43,065 nt of DNA from Magnetococcales bacterium (GTDB lineage Bacteria > Pseudomonadota > Magnetococcia > Magnetococcales > JADFWU01). The notes below the pieces were generated by a model. It was not told the origin of the DNA and did not search any database. It worked only from the letters and a program-made list of their open reading frames with translations. The stretch is taken from contig JADFWU010000023.1 in NCBI GenBank assembly GCA_015234045.1, positions 2,622 through 45,686 of the forward strand. The letters run 5' to 3'. Positions 1,449 through 40,534 of this stretch are shown here, piece by piece (positions within the stretch are counted from its first letter, which is position 1; the number at the start of each line of letters is the position of its first letter). A program made the position numbers and the translations under genes.

Positions 1449-2762
1449 TCATCTGGTAAACAGAGCCAGACTTTCCACATGCCATGCCATGGGAAACATA
1501 TCCAACGGCACGACCTCTTCCAATGTATAACCACCCTCTTGCAACACACCGGCATCCCTGGCCAATGTCGCCGGATCACACGAGACGTAGACGACGCGCT
1601 TGACCGGAGAATCAACCAGCGCTTTTGCCACAGCAACAGCCCCTTCACGCGGTGGATCTAATACCACGACATCCTGTTCAGACCACGCCAATTTAGCCAA
1701 CTGCGCCGCATCGGACAGATTCGCCATATGAAATGTGAGCGCATCCAACCCGTTAACACGACTGTTTTCAACAGCCCGTTGCACAGCTGGCCGATAGGAC
1801 TCTACCCCTGTCACGCTAGAAAAATTATCTGCCAAACTGAGTGAAAAATTACCCACACCACAAAAAAGATCCCAAACCCGCTCACCACTACCCGCCCGTT
1901 CCATTACCATAGAAACCAACTGACGATTTTGAGCACGGTTTACCTGGGTAAAATCGCCTGGCAAAAAAGAGAGCCGTTTGCCATCATCCAGCCCGTAGGA
2001 AAGCAATTTTTTCTGAATAATGGGACGCAATGTGCGTTTTTTTCCACGCTGTAACCAAAATTGATCAATAGCGTGCGTTTCGGCAAACGCCTTGAACAGT
2101 TGAAAATCTTTCTGCCTCGGTGCCACCATGGTGTGAATCACTAATCCGAAGGAATCATCACCACGAACCAAGTCAATTTCAGCCACCTGACGTGTAATCG
2201 TGAGTTTACTGATCAGTGTACGCAGTGGTGCAATCAACTGATTCAAGGCAGGTTCCATCACCGGACAGCTTTCAATATCGACAATCCGATGGCTGTTGGT
2301 CTCATAAAAGCCCATCAGCACATGCCCTTTGACCGCACGCACTTTCAAACCCGCCCGACTGCGATATTCACTGGACTGCGGAGAAGGAATCACTTCCCCA
2401 ACAGCGGTATCCACACCACCCAAGCGCTGCAACGCCTCTTCAACAAATCCCTGCTTGGCCTTCAATGCCTGCCCGCTGGATAGATGTTGAAGATGACAGC
2501 CACCACACCGACCAAAATGCGGACAAAGCGGCTCCTGACGCTCCGCCCCTGGCTCAATAATGGACTCAATCTCACCATGCACAAACCGCTTGCTGGTCTT
2601 GACAATCCGAACCTCGACAACATCTCCAGGCGCACCATACGGCACAAACACCGCCTGCCCGTCATAACGTCCCAGACTAAGACCACCGGTGATCATTTTT
2701 TCAATAGTCAGGGTGATTTTTTTGCCTTTTTGCTCTGAATGATGGCTCATTAAGTTACTCAC
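1449..2762 (-). CDS. rlmD: 23S rRNA (uracil-5-)-methyltransferase, RlmD/RumA family
   Basis: This 437-residue protein has the RumA layout. An N-terminal TRAM domain (about residues 14-70) is followed by the [4Fe-4S] cysteines C80, C86, C89 and C166, a SAM-binding segment near 293 (VWDLFCGVGNFSLSLA), and the catalytic cysteine C395 in YVSCDPATLARD. The family makes 5-methyluridine in 23S rRNA, using SAM and a covalent cysteine intermediate. U1939 is the E. coli RlmD target, but RlmC and RlmCD relatives cannot be excluded. The longest frame begins with GTG at 2762, overlapping the znuA stop; an ATG at 2750 (MSHHSEQ) is an equally good start. The overlap indicates translational coupling to znuA. 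Confidence 0.88.
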   Translation of the reverse strand: MSNLMSHHSEQKGKKITLTIEKMITGGLSLGRYDGQAVFVPYGAPGDVVEVRIVKTSKRFVHGEIESIIEPGAERQEPLCPHFGRCGGCHLQHLSSGQALKAKQGFVEEALQRLGGVDTAVGEVIPSPQSSEYRSRAGLKVRAVKGHVLMGFYETNSHRIVDIESCPVMEPALNQLIAPLRTLISKLTITRQVAEIDLVRGDDSFGLVIHTMVAPRQKDFQLFKAFAETHAIDQFWLQRGKKRTLRPIIQKKLLSYGLDDGKRLSFLPGDFTQVNRAQNRQLVSMVMERAGSGERVWDLFCGVGNFSLSLADNFSSVTGVESYRPAVQRAVENSRVNGLDALTFHMANLSDAAQLAKLAWSEQDVVVLDPPREGAVAVAKALVDSPVKRVVYVSCDPATLARDAGVLQEGGYTLEEVVPLDMFPMAWHVESLALFTR

Positions 2763-3738
2763 CTAAACAGTGGGCCAATGAATCACCCAACGCGTTCATA
2801 ATTTCAAAATAGGCATCAGGTCCCGGCTTAATCCCTGTGCCCAACGGGTCTAATACTGCGGACTTGATACCAGTATCACCGGCAATGGCAGTGACAATGC
2901 GTTCAGAAAATTGTGGCTCACTGAACAGGCAGTGCGTTGCGGATTGCTTAATGCGCTGTTGAATCTGATGCAAACGCTTTGCACCCGGCTTGCGATCTGG
3001 ACTCACCGCCACCGCACCCACCGGACTCAAACCATAACGCGCTTCAAAATGATGATACGCATCGTGGAATACCACATATGCGCGGGTACGCAGAGGTTTC
3101 ATTTTCCGCAACAATCCACGGTGCAAACGACTGATCCGCCCGAGCACATTGGTAGCATTCTGTTGATAAAGCGCAGCATTGTCTGGATCAAGCGCACTGA
3201 GCTTTCGACTGATCGCAGAGGTGATCGCCTTGGCATTCTGTGGATCCAGCCAGACATGCATATCAGTCAACATGCCCTCATGATCATGATGATGCGCCTC
3301 ATGACCATGTTCATCATGAACCGCCTCATCATGGTAATGATCATCATGCCCATGTTCCTCTTCCACATCCCCAAGCCACGCCCCCAAATCCCGATTAGGC
3401 TGAGGCTTGACCCCAGGCACGTTAAACAACATCATGGATTTCTCTTCACCCAACCCCTGAAGCGTCTTGGTCAAAAACGACTCAAGCGTCGGCCCAACCC
3501 AAAACACGATATGCGCGTTATTCAAAGCGCGTACATCAGAAGGTCGAAGATTATAGGTATGCGGAGACCCACTCCCCTTAACCAACAAATGCGGCTCACC
3601 TCGCCCCTGCATCACACCTGCAACCAATGAGTGAATCGGGCTGATCGTGGCAACAACTGAAATATTTTCAGCCTGAGCAAAAGAAAACGACCAGAAAAAA
3701 GAACAACAAACAACAAACCGAACCAAATTGATAAACAT
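2755..3738 (-). CDS. znuA: Zinc ABC transporter substrate-binding protein ZnuA
   Basis: This is a periplasmic cluster A-I metal-binding protein of 327 residues. A signal peptide ends near FAQA (residue 23). The expected zinc ligands are present: H60 in SPHTYNL, H161 in MHVWLD, H225 in VFHDAYHH, and an acidic residue near D297. A His/Asp/Glu-rich loop at about 126-153 is the mark of zinc rather than manganese members. C270 and C324 match the C-terminal disulfide pair known in ZnuA. An AAGG lies about 7 nt upstream of the ATG. The permease and ATPase genes (znuB, znuC) are not in this window, so the protein is an orphan here or works with a transporter encoded elsewhere. I could not identify a convincing Zur box in the AT-rich upstream region. 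Confidence 0.9.
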   Translation of the reverse strand: MFINLVRFVVCCSFFWSFSFAQAENISVVATISPIHSLVAGVMQGRGEPHLLVKGSGSPHTYNLRPSDVRALNNAHIVFWVGPTLESFLTKTLQGLGEEKSMMLFNVPGVKPQPNRDLGAWLGDVEEEHGHDDHYHDEAVHDEHGHEAHHHDHEGMLTDMHVWLDPQNAKAITSAISRKLSALDPDNAALYQQNATNVLGRISRLHRGLLRKMKPLRTRAYVVFHDAYHHFEARYGLSPVGAVAVSPDRKPGAKRLHQIQQRIKQSATHCLFSEPQFSERIVTAIAGDTGIKSAVLDPLGTGIKPGPDAYFEIMNALGDSLAHCLGE

Positions 3739-3943
3739 AGAAAAACCTTGACCAATCCTCTACAGCTTAACGAAAACAACTTGACAAGAAAACAACTCAT
3801 AAGCTAGAAACTTAAATATCTAAAAAAAATTAAGAATTGATTCTATGTGAAGATTAACATCCTACATAAAAAATTTTGAGTCGGTTGACACAACGCTAAA
3901 ATATAAAAATTGGATTAAACACAAGGGCAAGAAAACACACAAA

Positions 3944-6157
3944 ATGAAAAATAAAATAAAGTCCATACTAATAGCTCTATTTATTTTATTCCCTGCGATC
4001 ATATTATCGTCATGTATGGTAGAATATCCAGATATTTACAATTACCCTCAAAACATTAACAAACTAATCACTCCTGCATCACAACAGCCTGCTCCTGCAT
4101 CACAACAGCCTGCTCCTATTACAACTTCACAACCACCACCAATAGTAGTAAAGCCGACCATACAACAAATAAATGGATGCAAAGACAAGCCAACTCCAAT
4201 GCCACTACACTCAGGCATGAGTGAACCAATCCATTTTAATTGCTCTCCACAACAGTTCAACAATACCAAAGATGAAAATCAAGATAAAAAAGCACATCTA
4301 AATATTGATACATTAATAAAATTCACTAATCATATTTCAAAGTCCATAGAAAATTTATTTGTTAGTAAAACACATAAAGAATCTGAAAATAAAAAGCAAT
4401 CACCTGAAAAAGGGTATTACAGTATTGAAGTACTGTATAATTGGTTGGCTCAGTTTTTTGGGGAAAATATTTTTACAAAATCTATCATAATTTTCTCAAT
4501 TTATACAATACCATTGTTTTTCATTCCAAGTCTAGCAATATTTATAGTAAATAACACAGCAGCAAGCAATAAAAAAACAAGACATAGAGGATTCTATTTT
4601 GGCTTATACACACTAAAACTTACGCTAACTTTTTACCCTTTTATGTCTATCACTTATTTGTATATGGCATTAATGACATTTGGTGTTACAAACAATCAGT
4701 TGTATATGTATTCAATTTTTCTTTGGATAATAACCTTGCTTGCGTGGGGAAGAAATATAGTTGGAGTCCATTATATAAGACAAATACCAAGTTTATATCC
4801 TCATTTTTTGCACTCCGTTGAAAAAGACCTAGAAAATAAATTACTACCCTCGCGTAGAAAGATTTATAAATCAATCACACACTTAATAAATGATGATAGA
4901 AAAAATATAAATGACACACTATACCTCGGAGATGACAGAGGCTCAGGAAAATCATTTTTCATTGATATTCTCATTAAGAAAAATGACTCTATTGGCTTCA
5001 ATGCTCCTTGCATAATTCCTATTGATATTTGGTCTGAACAAAGTGAGCCCGATCTTCAGTTTGCTCTCCTTGACAAAGTACTATCTCATCCAGCTATAAT
5101 CATTGACAATTTTAGAAATTATCCGCTTTCAGTATTGCTAAATCATATTTCACGCTTCTTCGGGCGCTTCAAAGCAAAGATAAAAATGCCTGCTTTCCAT
5201 TTAGAAGCAAATTTCTCAGATAAAGGGGTAGAATTATTCTGGCAAAAAGTTCTTGAAAGAGTAACTTCAAGGAAGAGGATGGTTTATATTTTTGACGAGC
5301 TTGATCGCGCCTCAACTCCAAGCACTCAGAATGCTTTGTCACTTACACAACGTTCACTAAATAAATTCAACAATATTGTAATCATTATTGGCACTAGGGA
5401 ACAGATCAATACTAAAGCATTTAATCCATTACAAACCCTATATAATCCAGATTTGACAGACTCTGTCCATGCAACTCTTTTTGATCTATTCACAAAAGAA
5501 TATTCTGATTTAGATAAGTCCTCCCAGGCGACTTGGCCAAACTGGATACGAGAAACAATAAATGATTATACTTACCAACATTCCATACTGGAAAATCTTA
5601 ATAATGGGCAAACAGCTCCCAATTCAGAAAACAACACCTCATCTTCAGAACCTTCTACAAACTCTGCAAATCCTTCGATCACTCCTCAACATAGGCAATC
5701 AGGTTACCACAACTTCACCTTAAGGTATTTTTTGACAAAGTATGAAAAAAATCCGAATTTCATTAGAAAATTGTACGAACAATCTGGTGAAAGATATTTT
5801 AGCAACGAAATAGATTTCGACAACCTTTATCCTAATGATGTCATATTCTTAGCTGATACTGAGATTCCGGATTTTAATAAGCTACTAGAACTGACATATA
5901 ATGCTAAAAATCCGGGCTTAGAATATGATGTTTATCATGAAAAATGCCTAGAAATACTAACCAATTCAGTAGGTATTCTTTTTGTGTCTGACATTATTTC
6001 AGATCAAGGAATAAAAAGTCTCACACCCAGAATATTATTGGGACAACTAAGAAAGACCTTTTTGAATGCACGTAATACATTCGGGGAAAATATAGATTTG
6101 AGTGATATTAGTGTAGCTATCCAAATATCAATCCTTAATTCTGTCACTTTTGTTTAA
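3944..6157 (+). CDS. Lipobox-bearing, three-TM P-loop NTPase (KAP/STAND-like), first gene of AT-rich island
   Basis: I do not recognise a named family for this 737-residue protein. Residues 1-24 form a lipoprotein signal ending in LSSC (C24 the likely lipidated residue). A Pro/Gln-rich, low-complexity segment with two cysteines (C80, C100) follows. Three hydrophobic helices lie at about 179-203, 217-246 and 253-271. The loop between helices one and two is basic (NKKTRHR), so by the positive-inside rule the N-terminal part is periplasmic and everything after 275 cytoplasmic. There, GDDRGSGKS (329-337) looks like a P-loop and RMVYIFDELDRAS (445-457) like Walker B, recalling KAP or other STAND/AAA-type NTPases; IIIGTRE (480-486) may be sensor 1. 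A Ser/Asn/Thr/Pro-rich linker spans about 555-588, before a C-terminal domain of unknown type. The G+C content is visibly much lower than in flanking genes. The stop lies 16 bp before the next gene. A role as a membrane sensor, perhaps in phage defence, is inference. Confidence 0.75.
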   Translation: MKNKIKSILIALFILFPAIILSSCMVEYPDIYNYPQNINKLITPASQQPAPASQQPAPITTSQPPPIVVKPTIQQINGCKDKPTPMPLHSGMSEPIHFNCSPQQFNNTKDENQDKKAHLNIDTLIKFTNHISKSIENLFVSKTHKESENKKQSPEKGYYSIEVLYNWLAQFFGENIFTKSIIIFSIYTIPLFFIPSLAIFIVNNTAASNKKTRHRGFYFGLYTLKLTLTFYPFMSITYLYMALMTFGVTNNQLYMYSIFLWIITLLAWGRNIVGVHYIRQIPSLYPHFLHSVEKDLENKLLPSRRKIYKSITHLINDDRKNINDTLYLGDDRGSGKSFFIDILIKKNDSIGFNAPCIIPIDIWSEQSEPDLQFALLDKVLSHPAIIIDNFRNYPLSVLLNHISRFFGRFKAKIKMPAFHLEANFSDKGVELFWQKVLERVTSRKRMVYIFDELDRASTPSTQNALSLTQRSLNKFNNIVIIIGTREQINTKAFNPLQTLYNPDLTDSVHATLFDLFTKEYSDLDKSSQATWPNWIRETINDYTYQHSILENLNNGQTAPNSENNTSSSEPSTNSANPSITPQHRQSGYHNFTLRYFLTKYEKNPNFIRKLYEQSGERYFSNEIDFDNLYPNDVIFLADTEIPDFNKLLELTYNAKNPGLEYDVYHEKCLEILTNSVGILFVSDIISDQGIKSLTPRILLGQLRKTFLNARNTFGENIDLSDISVAIQISILNSVTFV
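4071..4112 (+). repeat. Two perfect 21-bp tandem repeats in the NTPase gene
   Basis: The 21-bp unit beginning ctcctgcatcacaacagcct occurs at 4071-4091 and again at 4092-4112, followed by a partial third start (ctcct). It encodes the repeated PASQQPA element in the predicted periplasmic, proline-rich stalk. In-frame units of this size can vary in number between strains. Confidence 0.9.
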
Positions 6158-6173
6158 TTAATGGTGAAATATT

Positions 6174-8465
6174 ATGCCTAAAATTGATCACAACGACACT
6201 TCAATAAACAATATAAAAGATGATGAACACACTGACAATAATATTAATGCGGAACAAATTACCAGTAATAGTTCTAACACTCCCATTCCTTTTACAAAGA
6301 ACGATGGAAAAGCACATGTACTTTATTATAGGTTAATACAGATATATAATCAATCAGTTGATTCAGTGAAAGAGGCACAAGAATTTAAATCCACAGAAAA
6401 ACACAGGGAAAATAACGAGCATTTATGGGAAAAAATCATTGAGAATTTTCAACATAAATTGAATCGCTTTTCCGAAATTGATGAACTTGCATTATTTAAT
6501 ATAGATTCATTTTCCTCTGATGCGCAAGAAGTAACAAGACAAGTTGATGAATTCATAAACAATGCTAGATCTAAAAATGAATTAATTTTGATTTTTCGTG
6601 TGCTTATTATTAGTTTATTTGAACAATGGGAATCTGAAGAAATACACACATCAACTCAACGCGTTGATTTTATGTTAAACATCATGAACAATCCAGAGAT
6701 CTTTATCTTTAGATGTGGCCTCTCATTTCGAAAGCTTATTACAGTACTAAGATCATTTTTATTTTATAAAATTGATCTTAGTACTGATTTTGAACATGTT
6801 ACGAATGACACTTTACTCACTTATCATGCATTAGCTCAGATTGCAAATCGTACCTCCTCGCCGTCTTGTCGTCGTTTAGCTATTTATTACTCTTTAGATA
6901 TCCTCATTACCACTGCCCGCCAAGTTAACAATACACTTTCTTTCAATCGTAAGGGTGACTTAGACAATAACCAATTTTACACTTTTGACGAAAAGCAGAT
7001 GAGAATGATTCACTCATTAACCTCTAATCTATCAGCTTTTTTTCTTCACATATACAATGAGAATCACCTTTCACAAATTACTAGCTCTGATAGTAATCCT
7101 TTGGAAGAGGTTGCTAAATTTGTTATTTTATCCATTAAATTCAGTACATCAGAAAAAAATCTAGATATTCCACCTTCCCCATCTGAAGAAATGACTGGCT
7201 TCAGTAATCTGTGGTTTACTGAGTCAGCTTCCTTAAATAAATTAAGTGGCCAAGTTTGGGCGGATATGTTCAAACGCTATATTAACTACATTGGATCGAC
7301 CACAACCGGCTCCCAAGCTTTAAAAGAATCTTTTCCTAGTTTGCTTGTTGATTATAATCAAAACAATATGGAACATTTAAAGGAGTATTTGATATTGGCG
7401 TTTCATTATCTTTCAGCTCTTTCCCGGGGGCTCTTTATCCAGAAAAAAGATTATGATGAAGTTTCTCAAGCTTTTTTCAATTCGAGTGTAAGTTATAGCC
7501 TTATTAAAGATTTATCAGGTTCTCATCCAAACCTGAATGAGACTTTTCTTTCTTTCTCAATGGTATTATCATCAGCATGTGGTTTTTGGTGGGCATTTAA
7601 TATGGCTGAAGACTTAGAACACGCTCTGAATAGCTATCATGGTACTAGTTGTGCTGTTAACTTACTTGGTGCCCTTAGCAACTTTGACCATTCAGGTACT
7701 GTCGGTGAGAAAAAATATAATGAAATATCTCAAGCTTACATTGATTTGGCTGTTTATTTAATTAATATTTTACCTGATCATTCTAATGATCACCGTAGAA
7801 TAATTTTGTCTTTGCAAAAACTTGGAACACAATTTTCTGAATCATCTGATTTTTCAGGAGATCTTGGGAAAATACTATTACGTCATCAATCTAACATAGT
7901 GAAGTATGTATCAGAAAATCGAGATGATAGGATAGCAACTGTTTTAGGGATATTTCATACCATAACTGGGTATTTTGAATACTCTTCTTATGAAAATTTT
8001 ACCAATTGCGACACATCAGAAGTAACTATTTCATCAATTTTAAAAAGCCCTTTGTCAGAATCAAACAAACAAGAACTTATTGGGTTGCTATCTGAATTTT
8101 TAAAATTTTATCTAGTTAAGTATAATAAAATAAATCACTATCCTTTTGGTTCTGATTTTTCACTACTGTCTTGTATTTCCACTATTTTAGATAAATTTGA
8201 TGAGTCATATAACGATCTTCCAAGATATTTTATCACAGCGTTAGAACGCTTTTTTTTCAAGAGTGATGATGGCAACGACATCAACAAAGATCTAAAACAT
8301 AATCCTTTCACAAAGCATCATCTTCTAACTGATGGAGAATGGGATTCATTATCAGAAAGCGCTGTTCCAGAATTTGAACCTCCGTTAAGTGATGAATTAA
8401 GAAATATTTTTTCTACAATCCAGAAAGATATTCTATTTTTTCGTGAAAGCGTTCATCAAGAATGA
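6174..8465 (+). CDS. Uncharacterised 763-residue protein, second gene of AT-rich island
   Basis: I recognise no family or catalytic motif. The first 45 residues are polar and acidic (Asp, Asn and Thr rich) and look disordered. The remainder reads as a long, mainly helical soluble protein with regularly spaced Leu, Phe and Tyr, such as FRKLITVLRSFLFYKIDL near 180-200. There is no signal peptide, convincing TM helix, P-loop or nuclease signature. It begins 16 bp after the NTPase stop with GGTGA about 7 nt upstream, so the two genes are almost certainly one transcript. Its base composition is as AT-rich as its partner, implying joint acquisition. An adaptor, helical-repeat sensor or effector partner of the membrane NTPase is a reasonable inference from the pairing only. 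A perfect 14-bp inverted repeat lies inside the gene at 6742-6786. Confidence 0.8.
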   Translation: MPKIDHNDTSINNIKDDEHTDNNINAEQITSNSSNTPIPFTKNDGKAHVLYYRLIQIYNQSVDSVKEAQEFKSTEKHRENNEHLWEKIIENFQHKLNRFSEIDELALFNIDSFSSDAQEVTRQVDEFINNARSKNELILIFRVLIISLFEQWESEEIHTSTQRVDFMLNIMNNPEIFIFRCGLSFRKLITVLRSFLFYKIDLSTDFEHVTNDTLLTYHALAQIANRTSSPSCRRLAIYYSLDILITTARQVNNTLSFNRKGDLDNNQFYTFDEKQMRMIHSLTSNLSAFFLHIYNENHLSQITSSDSNPLEEVAKFVILSIKFSTSEKNLDIPPSPSEEMTGFSNLWFTESASLNKLSGQVWADMFKRYINYIGSTTTGSQALKESFPSLLVDYNQNNMEHLKEYLILAFHYLSALSRGLFIQKKDYDEVSQAFFNSSVSYSLIKDLSGSHPNLNETFLSFSMVLSSACGFWWAFNMAEDLEHALNSYHGTSCAVNLLGALSNFDHSGTVGEKKYNEISQAYIDLAVYLINILPDHSNDHRRIILSLQKLGTQFSESSDFSGDLGKILLRHQSNIVKYVSENRDDRIATVLGIFHTITGYFEYSSYENFTNCDTSEVTISSILKSPLSESNKQELIGLLSEFLKFYLVKYNKINHYPFGSDFSLLSCISTILDKFDESYNDLPRYFITALERFFFKSDDGNDINKDLKHNPFTKHHLLTDGEWDSLSESAVPEFEPPLSDELRNIFSTIQKDILFFRESVHQE
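6742..6786. repeat. Perfect 14-bp inverted repeat inside the island's second gene
   Basis: The left arm cagtactaagatca (6742-6755) is matched exactly by the right arm tgatcttagtactg (6773-6786). The 17-nt AT-only spacer contains its own 12-bp palindrome (6761-6772). On RNA this would be a stable hairpin, yet both arms code for protein (VLRS and DLST). Whether it is regulatory, a binding site or chance cannot be told from sequence. Confidence 0.8.
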
Positions 8466-8505
8466 TAGCATAATTTATTGGCTTGTATTATTAAATGGGA
8501 TTCAA

Positions 8506-11316
8506 TCAAATATACTTTCCAGTCCAGGATCTTTTTTCTGCAACGATCTGTTTCTGAGTGCCTGCAATTATTAATTCTCCCCCTTGGTCCCCGCCTTCAG
8601 GGCCAAGGTCGATAATCCAATCCGCCGCCCGTATTACATCCAAATTATGCTCAATCACCACCACTGTATTACCACCATGCACCAGCCGTTGCAGCACATC
8701 CAACAACCGCCGGATATCATCAAAATGTAATCCCGTAGTAGGTTCATCCAGAATATAGAGCGTTTTTCCAGTTGCCCTTTTTGATAGTTCACGGGCGATT
8801 TTCACTCTCTGCGCTTCACCGCCCGATAGCGTGGTGGATGCCTGTCCCAATTTCAAATAGCCCAAACCGACATCCATCAGTGTTGACAGTCGTCCTCTGA
8901 TGGGTGGAATGGCGTTGAACAGCTCCAACGCCTTTTCAACTGTAAGATTCAACACATCGGCAATAGTCATACCCTTGTAATGAATTTCTACGGTTTCGCG
9001 GTTATAGCGTTTGCCCTGGCATACATCACACGGTACAAACACATCGGGCAGAAAGTGCATCTCAATTTTCAAAACACCATCACCCTTACACGCCTCACAG
9101 CGCCCGCCTTTGACATTGAAGCTGAACCGGCCTGACTTATAACCCCGTGCCTTAGCCTCGGTAGTCTCGGCAAACAACTCCCGAATCGGCGTAAACACGC
9201 CAGTATAGGTGGCCGGATTTGAACGCGGTGTCCGCCCAATGGGCGATTGATCAATATGAATCACCTTATCAAGATGATGCACACCATCAATCGCATCAAA
9301 CTGACCGGCAGGCTGTTGCGCCTTGTGTAACCGCTGTGCCAAAGCGGGATAAATCGTATCCAGAATCAAACTGGATTTTCCCGAACCAGAAACGCCAGTA
9401 ATACAGCTCAACAGTCCCAATGGAATCGAAACATCAACGCCCTTGAGATTATTTGTCGTCACATTATTCAATGTGAGTTGGCGCAGTTCATCTGGTTTAC
9501 GTCGATTTTTTGGCTGTGGAATGCTTTTTTTGCCAGACAAATACTGCCCGGTCATAGAACCAGGATCAGCCAGAATCTCTTCAGGCGTACCCGCTGAAAC
9601 AACCTCACCACCATGAATACCCGGCCCTGGCCCCATATCAATGATGTAATCCGCTGTACGCATGGCATCTTCATCATGTTCGACAATCACCACGGTATTG
9701 CCCAAATTACGCAACCGAATCAGCGTATCCAACAGGCGTTGATTATCCCGTTGATGCAGGCCAATACTTGGTTCATCCAGAATGTACAGAACACCCACCA
9801 AACCGGAACCAATTTGATTGGCAAGGCGAATCCGTTGGCTCTCGCCGCCAGACAATGTGCCAGCGGTTCTATCAAGGGTCAGATAGTCCACACCCACGGC
9901 AATGAGAAAATCCAGCCTGTCGTGCACCTCTTTTAAGATCCGCTCGGCAATGGCTTTCTCTTTGGCAGACATCTCCACCTGATCCAGATAATCACGTGTT
10001 TTAGCCAATGAGAGCGCCGTTAAATCAGAGATATTGTGTTCACCAATCCGTACATGCAGCGCCTCTTTACGCAGTCGCTTACTCTCACAAGCCGGACAAG
10101 GCGTAGCATTGCGAAAACGCCCTAGCTCTTCACGTATATCCTCTGATTCAGTTTCCAAATAGCGCCGTTCCAGATTATTGATCACGCCTTCCCAGGTGCG
10201 AAATGTCTTAAATGAGCCGCGCGGACCACGATATTGGAAGCGAATTTTTTCTTTACCAGAACCATACAACACAATTTGACGAAAGCCTTCCGGCAATTCA
10301 CGCCAAGGCACACTAATTTGAATGCCATAGTGCTCGGACAAGGTATACAACGACTCCCGCGCCAAACGCGCAGTAGACTTTGACCACGGCGCAATTACGC
10401 CGCCACGAATGGATAGATCCGGATTAGGCACAATCAATTCAGGATCAAAAAACTGTTTGGTGCCCAAACCATCACACTCAGGACAGGCTCCAAAGGGATT
10501 GTTAAATGAGAAAAGACGTGGCTCAATCTCAGGATAGGAGATATTACAATGAATACAGGCATGCCGGGTTGAGAACAGTTTTTCCTCTTTAGGATCAGCA
10601 AGAATCTCAATCCGCGCCACTCCATCAGACAACTCAATCGCGGTTTCCAAAGAGTCTGCCAAGCGCACTTCAATACCCGGTTTGACGATAAGTCGATCCA
10701 CCAACACATCAATGGAATGTTTAATATGGCGTTTCAGCGGTGGCACTTCATCAATTTCATAGATTTCTCCATCCACCATCACCCGCGTAAAGCCCTTTTT
10801 GGCCAGAGTGGCCAGTTCTTTAAGATATGTGCCTTTACGCCCACTGATCACCGGTGCCAACAGCTGTAACCGTGAACGCTCCGGTAACGCCATAATCGCA
10901 TCCACCATCTGACTGATTGTCTGACTTTCAATCGGCAGTCCACAGCCATGACAATAGGGACGACCCGCACGCGCATAGAGCAAACGCAGATAATCATAAA
11001 TCTCCGTCACCGTACCAACCGTTGATCTCGGATTGCGACCTGTGGTCTTCTGCTCAATGGAGATGGACGGCGACAAACCCTCTATGGAGTCCACATCCGG
11101 TTTATTCTGAAGACTCAGAAATTGCCGCGCATAGGCTGATAACGACTCTACATAGCGCCTCTGCCCCTCCGCAGAGAGTGTGTCAAACGCCAAAGATGAT
11201 TTACCAGAACCGGAAACACCGGTAATAACGGTTAACGCATCACGTGGAATATCGACATTGATACTCTTGAGGTTGTGTTCTCTGGCACCACGGATAATGA
11301 TCTTCTTATCGGACAT
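8506..11316 (-). CDS. uvrA: Excinuclease ABC subunit A
   Basis: This 936-residue protein is full length for UvrA, the DNA-damage recognition ATPase of nucleotide excision repair, which loads UvrB on lesions. It has two ABC modules: Walker [10 protein letters not shown] at 33-41, signature [12 protein letters not shown], then a second GVSGSGKSS and [12 protein letters not shown] with [13 protein letters not shown]. Zinc-finger cysteine pairs are visible: CHGC and CIHC in the first half, CEAC and CDVC (flanking the conserved [10 protein letters not shown] region) in the second. The ATG at 11316 is followed by the conserved [12 protein letters not shown]. It is divergent from the siroheme gene with a 53-bp spacer holding a 14-bp palindrome. 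Its 3' end converges with the AT-rich island; no terminator is evident there. Confidence 0.97.
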
Positions 11317-12133: not shown

Positions 12134-12643
12134 TCAAGAATCGGTATTTTTCTTCTTTTCACGTGCCTCACGCAATTTATCACCAAGCCCTGCATCAATA
12201 GCCAACTTCCGGCGCTTGGCTGAATACTCAGGAGAAACCATTGGGAAATTCTTTGGAAGATCAAAGGTATCTCTGTAAATATCCACGCTCATGGAATGTG
12301 AACGTGTGAGATGACCCTTTAGAGCGCTGCATGCCTTACCACATAAAAGACAGATCACAGAAGAGTGTGAGACCGCCTCATCCACAGGCACAAACGGTTT
12401 TGGTTTCACAGCTGCAACACTTTTAGATGCAACCGAAGATCCAGAGCTTTTTTCGGTCTTATCTGCGGCTTCAACAGCTGTCTCAGTAGATTCTTCAGAA
12501 ATGCTCACTGTTTGATCGGATAGATTTACCAATGTGCCATAAATATTGGACAGTAAACCCGTCACTTCCTGAGGTGGAACTTCATTATTTGAAACGTATG
12601 ACTCAACAATCATTGCGGCTTGCTTAACAAGATCCGAGGACAT
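12134..12643 (-). CDS. MucR/Ros-family zinc-finger transcriptional regulator
   Basis: This 169-residue protein has the MucR/Ros architecture. An N-terminal helical oligomerisation segment (about 1-45) is followed by a Ser/Lys/Ala-rich linker. The prokaryotic Cys2His2 finger uses C98, C101, H111 and H116 (CLLCGKACSALKGHLTRSH), followed by the conserved YRDTFDLPKNFPMV segment and a basic tail. Members are H-NS-like global regulators in Alphaproteobacteria that bind AT-rich DNA and often repress exopolysaccharide, motility and acquired genes. GGAGAGGG sits just upstream of the ATG. The 400-bp AT-rich upstream region would suit autoregulation, and the AT-rich island at 3944-8465 is a plausible target; both points are inference. 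Confidence 0.9.
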   Translation of the reverse strand: MSSDLVKQAAMIVESYVSNNEVPPQEVTGLLSNIYGTLVNLSDQTVSISEESTETAVEAADKTEKSSGSSVASKSVAAVKPKPFVPVDEAVSHSSVICLLCGKACSALKGHLTRSHSMSVDIYRDTFDLPKNFPMVSPEYSAKRRKLAIDAGLGDKLREAREKKKNTDS

Positions 12644-39259: not shown

Positions 39260-40534
39260 TTACTCAATACGAGTGATGCGTTCACTACACAATTTTGACG
39301 GCAACAAAGCGATCAGAACCACACCCAACACCAATCCATGCGTAACCAAAATGGTGGGCAGAGAGGTATTGATCATGGCATAGGAAGGAATTGCCAACAG
39401 CGGTACAACAATTCGCAAATCTTTTTTGTGGCTGAGATTATCCAAGAAAAAAAACAGCCCGTACAACATCACACAGACAATAATAAATCCAGAATAGCCC
39501 GCATTGGCAAAACCATCGGCAAAGATATTGGCATTGGCACTCACCTCACTACTGCCATAATAGTGTGCTCCGATCAGTTTTGGCGGTGTGTTTGAAAAGG
39601 GATAGGACAGAAACAAGCTGAATGGTAACCGGTCCGAAAAATAGATCAGACCATGCTCAGAAAAATATTCAAGATATTTATAGTACAGCGATCCCGGAAC
39701 AAGAAAAATCCGCCGTACTAAAAGAGAATATAACAGTTTTCCAGTATCAGGTAGCATTTGGAAATAGGCACTTATTCCCGCTATTCCCAACGTACACGTC
39801 AGCACGATACTGAGTGCAAAACGCTCTTTGAACCATGAAACCAGACCATACAAGCCGCCCACCAAGATCAATCCAAAAAAAATAGTTTTCAATCCCGTGG
39901 TATTAAATATCAGAATCTGTACCGCAATGGTCACTGCAACCAGCCACCACTGCTTACGATACAATGCCAAAACCAATAACATGGGATTAACCACCTTGGC
40001 CAACCAAGCGACCAAGTATCCCCAACCACGCGTACTCTGCATGGTGTGCATTTCACGAAGACCATATACATCCGCAAGATCCGGGAAGTTTAAATGCAAC
40101 CCAAAGTGCCCAATCATGGCCAGCGTCATCACAATGACCAAACTGATCAACAGAAATATCAGCGAAGGCCGGGTAAGTGGCATACCACCGCGCATGAATC
40201 CAATCCAACTGCCATCCATGCGTAACAAAATAGCAAATGCAATTGATATCGCTAACAGCCCAGGCAAAGTGGACTCATCTGCCAATGGATAGAGCGCCGT
40301 AATCGGCACATAGGAAAGGGAAAACAGTAATACGACAATATACTGGGAAGGTCGCCGACAGGAGAGTGGGACCAAAAATCCCAATGTCAGCAATACACCA
40401 TATGAAGTGAGCTGATCAATCACCGAAACAGAATGGAAATGAAAACCCGCCCAACCTGATTGCGCCACAACCAGATAGTTCTGCTCCAAACCGATGCGAT
40501 AAATCAACAGTACGCTCAGGTAGATATAACGCAA
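39260..40534 (-). CDS. Polytopic membrane protein, O-antigen/exopolysaccharide polymerase-like (Wzy type)
   Basis: This 424-residue protein has roughly ten to twelve hydrophobic helices and one larger periplasmic-type loop with aromatic and Gly residues (LIGAHYYGSSEVSANANIFADGFANAGYSG). That layout is typical of Wzy-like polymerases that join O-antigen or exopolysaccharide repeats, with the N-A-N-ADGFANAG loop as in oligosaccharide repeat-unit polymerases. Sequence similarity in this class is weak, so other polytopic families remain possible. No ATG, GTG or TTG lies upstream in frame before a stop; the only start is TTG 40534, which has GGAG 8 nt upstream. No glycosyltransferase genes are adjacent in the window. 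Confidence 0.65.
   Translation of the reverse strand: MRYIYLSVLLIYRIGLEQNYLVVAQSGWAGFHFHSVSVIDQLTSYGVLLTLGFLVPLSCRRPSQYIVVLLFSLSYVPITALYPLADESTLPGLLAISIAFAILLRMDGSWIGFMRGGMPLTRPSLIFLLISLVIVMTLAMIGHFGLHLNFPDLADVYGLREMHTMQSTRGWGYLVAWLAKVVNPMLLVLALYRKQWWLVAVTIAVQILIFNTTGLKTIFFGLILVGGLYGLVSWFKERFALSIVLTCTLGIAGISAYFQMLPDTGKLLYSLLVRRIFLVPGSLYYKYLEYFSEHGLIYFSDRLPFSLFLSYPFSNTPPKLIGAHYYGSSEVSANANIFADGFANAGYSGFIIVCVMLYGLFFFLDNLSHKKDLRIVVPLLAIPSYAMINTSLPTILVTHGLVLGVVLIALLPSKLCSERITRIE

Follow-up and report, generated by a model that had tools for sequence, protein, structure and literature searches.

KAP-family P-loop NTPases are also found outside defence, KIDINS220/ARMS in animals being one case, and an insert of transmembrane segments in the NTPase domain is not universal among them. 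It is this position, inside the NTPase domain and between Walker A and Walker B, that the title of the 2004 paper by Aravind et al. reportedly gives for the transmembrane segments of KAP proteins. In the available description of Tmn, a KAP-family NTPase with two unusual transmembrane domains protects against phage (PMC11846954). In the Qat system, the KAP protein turned out to be dispensable for defence against some phages (PMC13279940), which calls for caution against taking the KAP protein as the effector. Several antiphage systems that still lack a mechanistic explanation contain a KAP ATPase (Tmn, and Qat with its QatA). A KAP ATPase tied to a single conserved partner represents a minimal two-component form and makes the target of the ATPase directly searchable.

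Gene Pair between znuA and uvrA

We analysed a 43,065-nt stretch of Magnetococcales DNA (hereafter, the window) from a draft genome of 3.65 Mb. The genes znuA (2755–3738) and uvrA (8506–11316), both on the minus strand, flank the pair upstream and downstream, respectively. The intergenic stretch between them covers exactly 3739–8505 and holds two intact open reading frames (ORFs) on the plus strand. The first (3944–6157, plus strand, ATG start) encodes a predicted membrane-anchored KAP-family NTPase of 737 aa, assigned with PF07693 of Pfam and a homologue profile, and the second (6174–8465, plus strand, ATG start) encodes its partner of 763 aa. They are separated by 16 nt (6158–6173, plus strand) with a Shine-Dalgarno-like GGTGA inside. 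These coordinates agree with the first-pass annotation, which had described two co-directional genes 16 bp apart on the strand opposite to their neighbours. Its further claim of a G+C content far below that of znuA and uvrA fits the measurement: the island has 32.6% vs. 48.1% (sd 1.3, minimum 45.5%) in segments of the same length downstream. At the third codon position, the G+C content is 25–27% in the island genes and 43–49% in five other genes of the window. Scans of the island edges for tRNA, Rfam RNA, and flanking repeats found none, in line with the first-pass annotation as regards tRNA, and promoter and terminator scans of the island gave scores no better than those of shuffles.

Outside the island, the window has ordinary contents, among them a type II/IV secretion ATPase and the nuo cluster of complex I. 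A second, smaller low-G+C stretch (37%) lies at 12–13 kb, with a ROS/MucR-family zinc-finger regulator at 12134–12643, and a 424-aa ORF with a TTG start and no Pfam match is located at 39260–40534, where the local G+C content is about 42%.

KAP-Family NTPase

The first gene product had been read as a membrane protein of the STAND/KAP/AAA type with P-loop-like and Walker B motifs. The hydrophobic segments and both motifs are all present, and the type can now be narrowed: judged by its sequence, the product belongs to the KAP-family P-loop NTPases, and its hydrophobic segments precede the NTPase domain. Its own match to PF07693 (KAP_NTPase) is marginal, with E = 1.9e-4 and 21.2 bits at a gathering cut-off of 20, but the assignment is firm because PF07693 is matched by all six members of the NTPase family (best E = 1e-16). 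The window NTPase is also recovered by the leave-one-out profile of its homologues at E = 3e-48.

For the alignment of motifs, the six NTPases were set beside three canonical KAPs taken from other genomes; one of these KAPs belongs to a Qat-like operon. GK[ST] and DE[LIV]DR are present in 6/6 NTPases and align to Walker A and Walker B of the canonical KAPs, which show DD[LI]DR at the latter position. In the window protein, Walker A reads GDDRGSGKS (residues 329–337; 4928–4954, plus strand), with G333, G335, and K336 invariant in the six homologues, and Walker B reads VYIFDELDRA (residues 447–456; 5282–5311, plus strand), with D451, E452, D454, and R455 invariant. In the window Walker A, Asp stands where the strict GxxxxGKS has its first Gly; the first P-loop Gly is missing in both the window and the Phycisphaerales NTPases. 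The order of motifs is the same as in canonical KAPs (Walker A, F/IDxW strand, Walker B). After Walker B, the family shows Y-x-E-x-[IL]-x-x-K-x-F-N-P in place of the canonical [EK]K[IL]IQ...P, and the loop before it is shorter.

The N-terminal hydrophobic segment (3944–4015, plus strand; hydropathy at residues 3–29) ends in a lipobox-like LSSC and is possibly a lipoprotein signal or anchor. It is followed by a Pro/Gln-rich stretch, and the two features suggest that part of the window NTPase may be periplasmic. A 21-bp tandem repeat at 4074–4120 gives PASQQPA twice in this stretch. Another hydrophobic region (4469–4768, plus strand; hydropathy and reading by eye) lies directly upstream of the NTPase domain. 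It is read as two to three transmembrane helices, of which those beyond residues 176–195, the only part where the hydropathy threshold is exceeded, were read by eye. By hydropathy, every family member has hydrophobic segments ahead of its NTPase domain, the main ones preceding the P-loop; the protein of genome G015 is the only one with such a stretch between its Walker A and Walker B.

Partner Protein Family

The second gene product had been described as a large protein with no recognised domain, and this description has withstood the profile searches. The window partner has no convincing match in Pfam, PADLOC, or NCBIfam, its homologues have none in Pfam and PADLOC, and a six-sequence partner profile has none in the PDB. 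No toxin, nuclease, immunity, or secretion-tag domain and no catalytic or effector motif was found in the partner. Leave-one-out partner profiles retrieve each left-out member at 1.7e-29 to 8e-56 (1.7e-29 for the window copy), whereas the shuffled controls are all above 0.03; the partner therefore constitutes a real family. On these grounds, the product of gene 2 is assigned to a new protein family of about 650–760 residues, undescribed in the libraries searched. Its signature GTSCAVNLLGAL (residues 490–501; 7641–7676, plus strand) has the consensus GLDCAVNLLGAL, in which G490, C493, N496, and G499 are invariant across six partner sequences.

A hydropathy scan of the window partner revealed no hydrophobic segment and no predicted transmembrane helix. 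The AlphaFold model of the partner is all-helical, and we regard a helical structure only as a likely reading because the pLDDT of the model is very low (38). The window, L018, and L019 sequences served as the input (3–4 rows; pLDDT 38 and 40). Foldseek with this low-confidence model returned helical-repeat proteins only, with E of 0.055 or worse, and we give these matches no weight.

That the pair is a decaying or neutral insertion, currently functionless, appears highly improbable. The strongly atypical composition, the change from Gly to Asp in Walker A, and the long branches on which both window proteins stand in the trees would all be compatible with decay, but both reading frames run uninterrupted through 737 and 763 codons, respectively, and retain GK(S), DExDR, and the signature of the partner family.

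Conservation and Distribution of the Pair

The pair is a conserved two-gene unit, real but rare. Homologues of the two genes do co-occur, the partner lying immediately 3′ of the NTPase in five of the six NTPase loci. Genomes with this order, the NTPase and then the partner, number three in Magnetococcales and two in Phycisphaerae, and the gene contexts differ among them. Apart from the window, the pairs are those of G012 (L009 12026–8239, the genes overlapping by 4 nt), G015 (L010 7096–1291), a Phycisphaerales MAG (L018 7695–11254), and G516, which belongs to the class of that MAG (L038 5793–9646, again with a 4-nt overlap). A contig scan with a strict pattern missed G012 and G516; the number of pairs found is five. 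The two genes overlap by 4–8 nt in three of the homologous loci and are 5 nt apart in the fourth, vs. 16 nt in the window. In G015, the partner consists of two complete copies fused in frame; the gene (L010:1291–5250, minus strand) encodes a fusion of 1319 aa, each copy accounting for about 660 aa. Other KAP proteins in related genomes occur without this partner.

At the sixth NTPase locus, that of the Magnetococcales genome G001 (L011:869–4217), a 349-aa ORF occupies the place of the partner. The idea that this ORF is a shortened partner was rejected, being unsupported by HMMER and hhalign. An unrelated ORF in this place looks as if the downstream part were swappable, as might be the case in an interbacterial or other conflict system that is not antiphage proper (a toxin with its regulator, or an anti-plasmid or anti-conjugation system). 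The accessory distribution and the two-gene layout would fit such a system equally well. We nevertheless consider it unlikely, given a partner in which no toxin, nuclease, immunity, or secretion-tag domain is seen.

Among 48 Magnetococcales genomes, the NTPase is present in four and the partner in three. A 398-genome sample of Pseudomonadota gave no further strong match, with one marginal match to the partner profile (G277, E = 8e-4). Strong matches were obtained in two of 397 genomes of the Phycisphaerae, the class of the Phycisphaerales MAG, and in G516 only in a 392-genome sample of Planctomycetota. G516 and G398 are the sole carriers in their own families, among 27 and 28 genomes, respectively. 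The G015 NTPase gene has 41% G+C in a 65% context and is anomalous like the window pair; the Planctomycetota pairs have the same composition as their hosts. The six loci share no common neighbourhood. Searches of plasmids and phages (tblastn with both proteins) and of IMG/VR (four alignments) gave no match, hence no vehicle was seen. In their trees, the two proteins diverge too far for congruence, direction, or time of transfer to be read. The znuA gene was found in 45 of the 48 Magnetococcales genomes, and uvrA stands beside it in 0 of 29 loci of relatives inspected; the weak uvrA matches near znuA of the relatives are short and of the ABC-ATPase type, and we took them for zinc-transporter ATPases.

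These data agree with the view of the first-pass annotation that the island is an accessory AT-rich insert: its G+C content is foreign and its occurrence is patchy across two phyla. Far from being a core, vertically inherited trait of all relatives, the system is missing from 44 of 48 Magnetococcales genomes, a count in which the absence from any one genome is uncertain and contig mis-binning is possible, since several genomes are drafts or MAGs. The pair is accessory, not housekeeping. Because of the patchy distribution together with the anomalous composition at two loci, we conclude that it is very probably mobile and acquired by horizontal transfer.

Gene Neighbourhood and Possible Function

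The PADLOC comparison covered ten window proteins and a selection of the neighbours at five loci; no recognised complete defence system was found beside any of the six loci. One locus in six, that of G001, has a candidate system, the PADLOC pair PDC-M07A/B (an AAA_21 ATPase and a small protein; L011:13444–14990) about 10 kb from the NTPase, and a neighbour in G012 has a generic radical-SAM match to the pVip model. The neighbours are mostly ordinary and include an AI-2E transporter, radical SAM, MCP domain, kinase-FGE, MoxR, SpoVR, and uvrC. The Phycisphaerales pair has uvrC (L018:5439–7040) a short way upstream, and the window pair has uvrA directly downstream. This was judged a coincidence, and a connection with nucleotide excision repair was rejected, no uvr gene occurring among the genes examined at the other four loci.

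It is somewhat unlikely that the pair is an envelope or stress module, a dispensable niche trait in which the KAP ATPase and the partner remodel a membrane complex or answer envelope stress. The ordinary neighbours and the Pro/Gln-rich stretch past the lipobox-like signal, suggestive of a periplasmic part, are consistent with such a module; however, the pair is scattered very unevenly over families and two phyla, its loci share no neighbourhood, and the nearest relatives scored by PADLOC are defence KAPs.

In our opinion, the pair is best explained as an accessory system of two genes that arrived by horizontal transfer and most likely serves antiphage defence, a reading that we hold tentatively, with a little less than even confidence. 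Antiphage defence is favoured for three reasons: the nearest scored models describe KAPs from defence systems, protection against phage by KAP proteins with transmembrane segments is on record for Tmn (PMC11846954), and the patchy distribution fits. The first-pass annotation had suggested a possible new system for defence or envelope stress, with an NTPase and a large partner; the KAP NTPase and the co-conserved partner are there, whereas we can speak only of a putative defence role. Counted against defence are the lack of an adjoining complete defence system and of a vehicle, a window NTPase with no PADLOC match, a partner with no effector motif, and the existence of KAPs outside defence.

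More specifically, and with caution, we suggest that the pair may represent a membrane immune system of two genes that has not been described before, with a short-form KAP ATPase of the inner membrane controlling new large helical partners, exchanged between Magnetococcales and Planctomycetota. The KAP ATPase motifs, the hydrophobic segments, and the co-conserved partner are observed parts of this mechanism. The NTPase would sit on the inner membrane, its ATPase domain facing the cytoplasm, and would bind the helical partner as a physical complex. An invader might be sensed, e.g., through phage DNA entry or a phage-induced membrane change. ATP would then be used by the NTPase to assemble or release the partner, and the latter would block infection or stop the cell; either of the two proteins may be the sensor or the actor.

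Comparison with Known Systems

Between two and four of the six NTPases are matched by each of the PADLOC models PDC-S20, PifA, and QatA; the window NTPase has no match among the PADLOC models, these three included. The similarity to PDC-S20 (up to four of the six NTPases, best 2.2e-9) and to PifA (three of the six, best 1.7e-9) is weak and at the domain level. Neither model contains a partner, whereas the window system has one.

The pair resembles QatABCD, whose operon begins with a KAP NTPase (QatA) and includes a functionally uncharacterised protein. Some members of the NTPase family are matched by QatA models, at up to 2.4e-10, and a Qat-like operon is the best non-member match among Planctomycetota. 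However, QatB-, QatC/QueC-, and TatD-like genes are absent from the six loci, with one partner gene per locus, and the partner shows none of the corresponding domains. Furthermore, the Qat-like QatA starts almost at the P-loop, while the NTPases of the window family bear an N-terminal membrane region. A QatABCD-like operon (KAP NTPase, unknown, QueC-like, and TatD-like genes, as read from the sequence) is located at L073:450–5135 in a Planctomycetota genome; an OLD-like ATPase and a Fic-like ORF come after it.

Tmn was compared by description; no Tmn model is among the PADLOC matches of any member. Like the window NTPase, it is described as a transmembrane KAP-family NTPase encoded by an accessory gene (PMC11846954). 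Its two transmembrane domains may be set against the hydrophobic segments that lie N-terminal to the NTPase domain in the window protein. The available description of Tmn mentions no partner (PMC11846954), and Tmn is counted here as a stand-alone gene, whereas the window NTPase has a large conserved partner and the genes of its family come as a pair.
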